From: Candidatus Poribacteria bacterium
Lineage (GTDB): Bacteria > Abyssobacteria > SURF-5
Length of the DNA: 64,000 bases
Reading direction: 5' to 3'
NCBI GenBank assembly: GCA_016215705.1
Contig: JACRIR010000135.1
Span: forward strand, 7,996-71,995
The position numbers and the translations under genes were made by a program. The notes under the pieces were generated by a model. The model made no database searches, was not told the DNA's origin, and saw only the letters and a list, made by a program, of their open reading frames with translations. This document shows, one piece after another, positions 3,181-58,743 of the stretch (position 1 is the stretch's first letter; each line of letters begins with the position of its first letter).

Positions 3181-3205
3181 GTAACGCTTACCTTATTTAT
3201 TCCTC

Positions 3206-4150
3206 TTATGCCTTGCGATTTCCGACGATATCAGCGATGGCCTCCAGCATACCGGCGCGAGGGCCGAAATCGGCCAAATGCTTCTTCGATTGCTCGATCA
3301 AGCTGAGGCAGCGCCGCCGCGATTCCGCCACTCCGAAAAGCCTCGGGTAGGTTGCCTTGTTGAGCGCAACGTCCGAGCGCGAGTCTTTTCCGGTTATTGA
3401 TGAATCTGATTCCACGTCCAGAATGTCATCCGCGATCTGGAACGCGAGGCCGAGGCAGTGTCCGTATCCCGTCAGGCTCTTGAGTGTTTCCGTGTCCGTT
3501 CCTGCGATTATCGCCCCCATCCGGACGGAGGCGGTAATAAGCGCGCCCGTCTTGTGGGAATGAATGTACTCGAGCGTAGGGAATTCCACTTCCTTTCCTG
3601 CCCACTCGATATCTGCAACTTGTCCGCCGATCATTCCCATTGTGCCGGCGGCATGGGCCATCTCATACACGAGCTTTGGAACGACCGACTCGTGACAGTT
3701 GGAGAGAGCCTCAAAGGCCAACGTGAGCAAAGCGTCACCGGCCAATAGCGCGATGGCTTCCCCAAATTTCTTGTGAGTAGTTGGTATTCCCCTGCGAAGC
3801 TGGCCGTCGTCCATCGCCGGCAGGTCATCGTGAATCAGCGAATACGTGTGCACCATTTCCAGCGCGCAAGCGGCCGGCAAGGCTTCGGTTGTGTTGCCGC
3901 CGCAAAGCTCGTTGGTTGCCAGGAGGAGAACGGGCCTGATTCTCTTGCCGCCGGCAAAAACACTATAGCGCATTGCCTCACAAACCGACTCCTCCAGACC
4001 TTTGGTTTCGGGGAGCAGCCGACGGAGTTCCTTCTCGACCATGAGGCCCCGGTCTTTCAGGTATTCCTCAAGGCTATTCGTCGAAGAGAGAGTCGGTGTG
4101 AGCGCCTTCTTTCCCTGATTGCTTCGACGCTTCCTGTCCCTGTTCGGCAA
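3206..4150 (-). CDS. ispA: Polyprenyl (farnesyl/geranylgeranyl) diphosphate synthase
   Basis: A class I trans-prenyltransferase that elongates allylic diphosphates with IPP. The first aspartate-rich motif is DDLPAMDD, the second DDILD, and GGKRIRP is the IPP-binding lysine/arginine segment. The 314-residue frame begins with TTG at 4150, which has AAGGAG at 7-nt spacing but lies 77 nt inside xseB. The next possible start is ATG at 4042, just downstream of the xseB stop, but that would drop the family-like segment NSLEEYLKDRG. I favour the early start but hold it loosely. The product chain length cannot be read safely from sequence. It sits between xseB and dxs, the common bacterial order. Confidence 0.93.
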   Translation of the reverse strand: MPNRDRKRRSNQGKKALTPTLSSTNSLEEYLKDRGLMVEKELRRLLPETKGLEESVCEAMRYSVFAGGKRIRPVLLLATNELCGGNTTEALPAACALEMVHTYSLIHDDLPAMDDGQLRRGIPTTHKKFGEAIALLAGDALLTLAFEALSNCHESVVPKLVYEMAHAAGTMGMIGGQVADIEWAGKEVEFPTLEYIHSHKTGALITASVRMGAIIAGTDTETLKSLTGYGHCLGLAFQIADDILDVESDSSITGKDSRSDVALNKATYPRLFGVAESRRRCLSLIEQSKKHLADFGPRAGMLEAIADIVGNRKA

Positions 4151-43227: not shown

Positions 43228-43363
43228 GGGAGAAACGAAAGGAGCGAGGCGCAATGAAACTGCACAGTGAGCGATGAACCATGGCAAATCTCAAGACGAA
43301 AGTGAAGAAATGATGAAAGATGGGGAAAGGGGAATAGAATGCTCTCACTCATAGATTGGCAAC

Positions 43364-43413
43364 CCTAAACCATGAACCGTAGACCGTGAACTGTAGACCG
43401 TGAACCACATGCC
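43364..43413. repeat. Short degenerate tandem repeat ('GTAGACCGTGAAC')
   Basis: CCATGAACC-GTAGACC-GTGAACT-GTAGACC-GTGAACC forms about four ~7-nt units just before the glycosylase gene. A similar pattern ('GGTTTATGGTTGGAGGTTGG') sits at about 18693-18712. Confidence 0.5.
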
Positions 43414-43992: not shown

Positions 43993-44123
43993 AGGAAGGG
44001 GGAACAAGCGGAGAAAGGGTCGAAAGGGGAAAAGGGGCAAAAGAGAGCCGAGAGGAACAAACTAAAGCGGCAGTTTCGGGTCACAGGAATTTGGAAACCC
44101 ACTACCGAGAAAAGGGGCGGAAT

Positions 44124-44441
44124 ATGCAAGAACCACTGCGTGTGCCTCCGAGTGAGGCTCGAGGGAAGGTCAAATCAGGCGACGCGCTGCTCGTATGCGC
44201 ATACTCAGACGCGGAGATGTTCAAGAGCATGCATTTGGAGGGCGCGATCTCGCTCCAGGAGTTCGAGTCGAAAGTGGCTGCGTTGCCGAAGACCCAGGAA
44301 ATCGTCTTCTACTGCGCTTGACCCAATGAGCGCAGTGCCGCCGGTCAGGCGGCAAAGTATCTCGAAAAAGGATACACTAATGCAAAGGCTCTCGGCGGCG
44401 GTGTCGAAGCGTGGAGGAAGGCGGGTTTTCCGCTCGTCTAG
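44124..44441 (+). CDS. Rhodanese-like protein with predicted selenocysteine (in-frame TGA at 44319-44321)
   Basis: A single-domain rhodanese of 105 residues if the TGA at codon 66 is read as selenocysteine. Upstream codons give MQEPLRVPPSEARGKVKSGD to IVFYCA; after the TGA the same frame continues PNERSAAGQAAKYLEKGYTN, ALGGGVEAWRKAGFPLV and a TAG stop. The family has cysteine in YCxCPNE at this place, so Sec replaces the second cysteine. AGGGGCGG precedes the ATG. A 7-bp hairpin, TGCCGCC-GGTCA-GGCGGCA (44336-44354), starts 14 nt after the TGA, as expected of a bacterial SECIS. If Sec is not used, the product would be a useless 65-residue fragment ending one residue before the active centre. 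The 44140-44463 frame is a shadow. Confidence 0.8.
44336..44354 (+). promoter_or_regulatory. Candidate bacterial SECIS hairpin in the rhodanese mRNA
   Basis: A perfect 7-bp stem with a 5-nt apical loop GGUCA; the loop begins 21 nt after the UGA. The same GGUC loop is found in the E. coli fdhF SECIS (established knowledge). The hairpin is within coding sequence, and codons through it still encode plausible rhodanese residues. No bulged U is evident in the short stem. Confidence 0.65.
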
Positions 44442-58543: not shown

Positions 58544-58645
58544 TGTGCGCTCCTTTCATGTTTGATGGACACCGCCCCATCTCTAGTAAAAAGGGACGGC
58601 CAGCCCCCATGCAATCGAAATTATTTGCTGTCCCTAAGCAGGGAC

Positions 58646-58743
58646 GCGCTCATTCGGGGACACGATGCGGCATCGTGTCCCCGAATAAGCGCTATTTCGC
58701 ATCATGCTCCCGAACAAGCGCCAAGCGGCATCGTATCCCCGAT
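58646..58743. repeat. Family A palindrome with degenerate tandem copies
   Basis: GCGCTCATTCGGGGACACGATGC and its near-complement (one mismatch) meet around one G at 58646-58692. They are followed by decayed copies of the arm such as GCATCATGCTCCCGAACAAG and GCATCGTATCCCCGATAA up to 58743. Confidence 0.75.

Follow-up and report, generated by a model that had tools for sequence, protein, structure and literature searches.

An in-frame UGA in a bacterial rhodanese gene very probably encodes selenocysteine in a divergent CxU rhodanese

Introduction

Does the TGA at positions 44319-44321 of this DNA end a short gene, or does it encode selenocysteine (Sec) within a longer one? The question concerns a 64,000-nucleotide stretch of contig JACRIR010000135.1 from a Candidatus Poribacteria bacterium, referred to here as the window. 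With the standard genetic code only a 76-amino-acid frame is visible at the locus (44091-44321), opening with a TTG start codon at 44091. A first-pass annotation, made from the letters of the window, had proposed that this frame is the truncated view of a Sec-containing rhodanese with its own hairpin, a class that it described as already known, and that the genes for Sec synthesis and insertion lie elsewhere in the genome. Here we follow these proposals through the reading frame, homologous sequences, the hairpin, and the Sec machinery.

Results and Discussion

The reading frame continues through the TGA

The TGA shares its frame with an ATG at 44124 and a TAG at 44439-44441 (Table 1), so that the first-pass reading of an in-frame TGA followed by a normal stop, hidden in standard annotation as a truncated frame, holds. 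Translation with TGA as Sec gives 105 residues (...IVFYCAUPNERSAAG...GGGVEAWRKAGFPLV) and includes the second half of the rhodanese domain. Two family models match across residue 66: the Pfam Rhodanese model (PF00581) at residues 16-99 (1.6e-9), with a score of 38.6 bits that passes the gathering cut-off of 22.2, and the NCBIfam model NF041203 'rhodanese-related (seleno)protein' at residues 37-104 (7e-17). The product would be a single-domain, probably cytoplasmic selenoprotein of the rhodanese type. Standard annotation would cut the gene short, and the reading proposed here corrects it.

Table 1 Coordinates of the Sec rhodanese locus in the window and of related two-TGA and UxC genes.
Feature	Position	Strand	Remarks
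Sec-containing rhodanese-domain protein, 105 aa, motif C64-A-U66 (candidate)	44124..44441	+	ATG start, TAG stop 44439-44441
UGA codon for selenocysteine U66 (predicted)	44319..44321	+	same column TGA in 29 sequences, window included
Codon of C64, canonical rhodanese catalytic Cys position	44313..44315	+	aligned with catalytic-loop Cys of solved rhodaneses
Possible ribosome-binding site, purine-rich AAAAGGGG, 5' of ATG 44124	44110..44118	+	sequence reading alone
SECIS-type hairpin TGCCGCC-GGTCA-GGCGGCA, 7 bp, 5-nt loop starting GG	44336..44354	+	folding and covariation
Two-TGA rhodaneses, TGAs six bases apart, YUxU motif	L071:3193-3510, L072:3030-3353, L073:3102-3419, L074:1818-2141, L087:1522-1818, L099:1498-1821
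UxC rhodanese, LYUTCP	L081:3266-3577 (G096)		genome with SelA, SelB, 74-bit tRNA-Sec match

The TGA is kept across homologues

Alignment of homologues, a check suggested with the first-pass annotation, places TGA in the Sec column of 29 sequences, many of them from other families. The set was completed by a profile search of 386 genomes; a contig scan of genomes with the window protein as the single query yielded nothing beyond Sec-free rhodaneses and partial matches. In a paralogue from the same genome (contig C250, 68-70% identity), and in the copies that the family's other two genomes carry, the Sec column is again TGA and the frame stays open beyond it, so neither a different codon nor a frameshift after the TGA, which the first-pass annotation had named as grounds for rejecting its reading, is found in these close relatives. 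Elsewhere the codon in this column is AGC (Ser) in G086c and TGC (Cys) in G225, the sister Cys form (FCTCPSEAT) and the only sequence with Cys at this position. In the genome of this plain Cys form, a search for SelA and SelB gave no match over the cut-offs.

The loci L067:5133-5549, L070:4926-5357, and L068:4795-5265 encode paralogous Sec rhodaneses, probable lipoproteins in which a hydrophobic stretch at the N terminus ends in Cys. Those at L067 and L070 adjoin a convergent gene for a GMC-type oxidoreductase. The Sec rhodanese is carried by three related genomes with Sec machinery, two of which hold both cytoplasmic and probable lipoprotein versions.

These sequences bear on whether the TGA is a true stop, which would leave a pseudogene or a 65-residue truncated protein followed by a chance hairpin. 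The standard-code frame does end at the TGA. Past it, however, ~15.5 synonymous and 8.5 nonsynonymous changes separate the window gene from its paralogue (dN/dS 0.07; pS is 0.68, near saturation), and this excess of synonymous over amino-acid changes, together with the occurrence of TGA and hairpin in all 29 sequences, argues for translation beyond the TGA. We consider a true stop very improbable, and the compensatory changes in the hairpin described below also count against it.

A SECIS-type hairpin lies downstream of the UGA

The hairpin (Table 1) has the sequence and spacing reported in the first-pass annotation: it begins 14 nt past the UGA, and the loop follows at 21 nt. A 60-nt fold has an energy of -21.7 kcal/mol (z -2.7), equalled in 2 of 200 shuffles. 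In E. coli, the SECIS element of formate dehydrogenase fdhF is also a hairpin downstream of the UGA with a GGU-type loop; set beside the window element by description, it shares these features, while the two proteins are unrelated. The model for bacterial SECIS elements calls for a loop of 3-9 nt, a stem of 4-16 bp, a G within the first two loop positions, and a UGA-to-loop distance of 16-37 nt (PMC13188914). With a 5-nt loop (GGUCA), 7 bp, and a distance of 21 nt, the element at 44336-44354 falls within all of these ranges.

By stem score this hairpin ranks fourth, tied with one other, among the 233 TGAs of the window that have at least 40 open codons before them and at least 25 after. This rank favors the possibility of a true stop beside a chance hairpin, and we rejected the hairpin alone as proof of Sec. 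The hairpin by itself is not decisive; the Sec reading was decided by homology across the TGA. A scan of the window with Rfam gave no match; to our knowledge, Rfam holds no general bacterial SECIS family.

Comparison of the hairpin between homologues is more informative than its stability in one of them. With the T of the UGA numbered 1, the pairs that join codon third positions are 18-36, 21-33, and 24-30. Pair 21-33 occurs as C-G in 14 of the 29 sequences and as U-A in another 14; the remaining sequence has G-C, so that it is unpaired in none. Pair 20-34 is G-C in 15/29 and C-G in 11/29. Taken together, these third-third positions are paired in 73 of 87 cells; synonymous redrawing of the codons predicts 33, and 0 of 5000 draws reached 73. 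In an analysis of 27 of the 29 sequences, changes on both sides of a pair account for 37 cells compared with 16 in shuffles (0/500); these shuffles ignore relatedness, yet the two pair types alternate across sequences of unrelated families. Sliding the partner by one to three columns abolishes the covariation signal, and the hairpin is absent from rhodaneses without the TGA. The hairpin is therefore conserved through compensatory change in homologues, and the loss of hairpin conservation in close relatives, which the first-pass annotation had listed as evidence that would overturn its reading, is not seen.

The genome encodes the machinery for selenocysteine insertion

The genome that contains the window has adjacent genes on contig C228 for SelA and SelB (which clear their cut-offs at 580 and 372 bits), a tRNA-Sec with a UCA anticodon on C59, and SelD on C134 (L078 / L026, G000:C134), which is itself a selenoprotein with an in-frame TGA (SSGGUACK). 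The first-pass expectation of selA, selB, selC, and selD elsewhere in the genome is therefore borne out. A second match to tRNA-Sec in this genome was rejected as a tRNA-Leu, as identified by ARAGORN, and matches in other genomes scoring near 50 bits were discounted and not counted as tRNA-Sec.

Of 21 genomes that bear the TGA, the UxC genome G096 among them, 20 have both SelA and SelB over cut-off, compared with 5 of 19 comparison genomes (Fisher p ~7e-6, to be read as a guide because we picked the comparison genomes by hand and most are the best non-TGA matches). The exception, G074, has TGA copies and a 78-bit tRNA-Sec match, with SelA and SelB not found over cut-off. As its congener G344 has both genes, their absence from G074 likely reflects an assembly gap.

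The frame past the TGA is open under any sense reading, and the codon might in principle be read by another route, either near-cognate suppression or reassignment to Trp or Gly. The conserved SECIS-type hairpin at the TGA and the complete Sec machinery with its UCA tRNA-Sec speak against such a route, as does the counterpart residue, which is Cys (G225) or Ser (G086c); among the long-loop subfamily rows seen, none has Trp or Gly there. We give this alternative very little credence. The preferred reading is that SelB would bind the hairpin at 44336-44354, leading the ribosome to insert at UGA 44319 a Sec delivered by the UCA tRNA-Sec, which would be made by SelA and SelD.

The predicted active site pairs Cys64 with Sec66

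An AlphaFold2 model of the protein, with Cys replacing Sec, has a rhodanese fold (pLDDT 89.5). The structure closest to the model is E. coli GlpE (1gmx; Z 16.3, rmsd 2.3 over 102 residues), which has no Sec. The two proteins share the fold and the catalytic-site Cys. When the window protein is aligned with rhodaneses of known structure and with ordinary ones, C64 falls at the position of the catalytic Cys and the loop that follows is two residues longer than in ordinary rhodaneses. The short canonical loop that starts from the catalytic Cys in a GlpE-type thiosulfate sulfurtransferase is thus not retained, although the Cys is. U66 falls within the extended stretch of the loop, two residues past C64, forming a CxU motif, with the exact placement of the gap uncertain. 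The first-pass statement that the TGA occupies a position where the rhodanese family has Cys is consequently correct within the subfamily, where G225 has Cys, and does not extend to ordinary rhodaneses, in which the catalytic Cys corresponds to C64.

The fold and motif suggest a role in thiol chemistry. Acting as a rhodanese does, C64 could accept an atom of sulfane sulfur (or of selenium) or else an oxidised substrate, and U66 could attack or resolve the C64 adduct through a C64-U66 selenenylsulfide. The protein would then act as a fast persulfide or disulfide reductase, or as a sulfur-transfer enzyme, recycled by cellular thiols. We moderately favor this role for the C64/U66 pair. A Sec protein in which U66 instead binds a metal, a metalloid, or selenium, the last as a perselenide carrier, seems unlikely to us but deserves consideration: some rhodanese domains handle selenium, with the matches to MnmH/SelU here reflecting domain homology only, and roles as metal ligands have been suggested for other selenoproteins (PMC13188914). 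Against a binding role, no metal- or selenium-handling gene is recognisable adjoining the locus. The neighboring genes encode a radical SAM protein, a uracil-DNA glycosylase, a glucose/sorbosone dehydrogenase, HSP20, and an SMC protein; this neighborhood offers no functional clue, and the cytoplasmic copies have no common neighbors.

The protein belongs with CxU rhodaneses, outside the present family model

Sec rhodaneses are not new, as the first-pass annotation had recognized. A 2026 review lists a CxU rhodanese as form 3 (NF041203, 'rhodanese_LYCAU'), along with forms 1, 2, and 4 (UxxS, UxxG) and TsoB (UxxxxU) (PMC13188914). The window protein shares with forms 1, 2, 4, and TsoB a rhodanese domain with Sec and differs from them in the Sec motif; its score with the TsoB model (NF045694) is 15 bits, where 805 are needed. 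With form 3 it shares a rhodanese domain, a single Sec in a CxU at the same place, the SECIS type, and the loop and C-terminal half, and it differs in having VCAY where the DVR stretch is common. C64-A-U66 occupies the same columns as the CxU of G365 and G149, which pass the NF041203 cut-off of 115 bits (156 and 131 bits). The window protein itself scores 61.2 bits and falls below it; three close CxU relatives and G277 score 61-72 bits, and the tested members of the window clade 42-72 overall. In the tree, this clade comprises the three genomes of the family with G139, G277, and G018, and is set apart from the rest with support of 100/96.

At 61 bits where 115 are required, the window protein represents a divergent branch of the CxU rhodaneses that lies outside the present NF041203 model. 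Its likeness to form 3, the sub-cut-off score, and the separate clade at 100/96 together place it as a known kind of protein in a branch beyond that model. We are highly confident of the joint interpretation that Sec would be inserted at UGA 44319 and that the product is a CxU rhodanese, find the comparative evidence for Sec insertion nearly conclusive, and regard the protein as a well-supported fresh example of an already known selenoprotein type.

Relatives with UxU and UxC motifs

Six copies in the set have a UxU motif, encoded in G018, G033, G344, G317, and twice in G074, and G096 has a UxC (Table 1). The UxU and UxC rhodaneses are absent from the table of the review (PMC13188914), and no paper on them was found by text search. 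The tree requires at least two changes to account for UxU, forced by the starred branches. Several UxU copies have an extra hairpin right after the second UGA, where UxU copies have a mean of 4.2 of 6 pairs compared with 1.8 of 6 in CxU copies; the better pairing comes from few independent cases and is a lead only. In the UxC gene, a SECIS-like hairpin has shifted along with the UGA so that the distance is unchanged, with only four standard pairs beside the loop. On the minus strand of L071 (G018), a Cys form (FYCDCDDD) lies directly upstream (5') of the UxU copy at 3193-3510, placing Cys and Sec versions in tandem.

A broader interpretation would join these observations: the window protein would belong to a distinct branch of Sec rhodaneses, as yet without a name and outside NF041203, in a superfamily where sulfur and selenium are exchanged again and again at each of the two positions of a single active-site pair (CxC or CxS, CxU, UxC, UxU), with UxU arising at least twice, once beside the window branch in G018. 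We see the arguments for and against this combined proposal as evenly balanced. If it is true, two UGAs six bases apart would be decoded by one conserved SECIS hairpin, with several UxU copies having an extra overlapping hairpin after the second UGA. The natural series of CxC, CxU, UxC, and UxU proteins, with their hairpins tracked, offers ready material for testing what selenium contributes at each position and how a pair of nearby UGAs is decoded.

Repeats elsewhere in the window

Between the radical SAM and uracil-DNA glycosylase genes, a 14-bp unit, AACCsTArACCrTG, is imperfectly repeated in tandem about three times (43361-43402). A perfect 21-bp inverted repeat with a 5-nt loop, and with TTCGGGGACAC within both arms, occupies 58640-58690 and resembles a mobile-element or REP-type palindrome.
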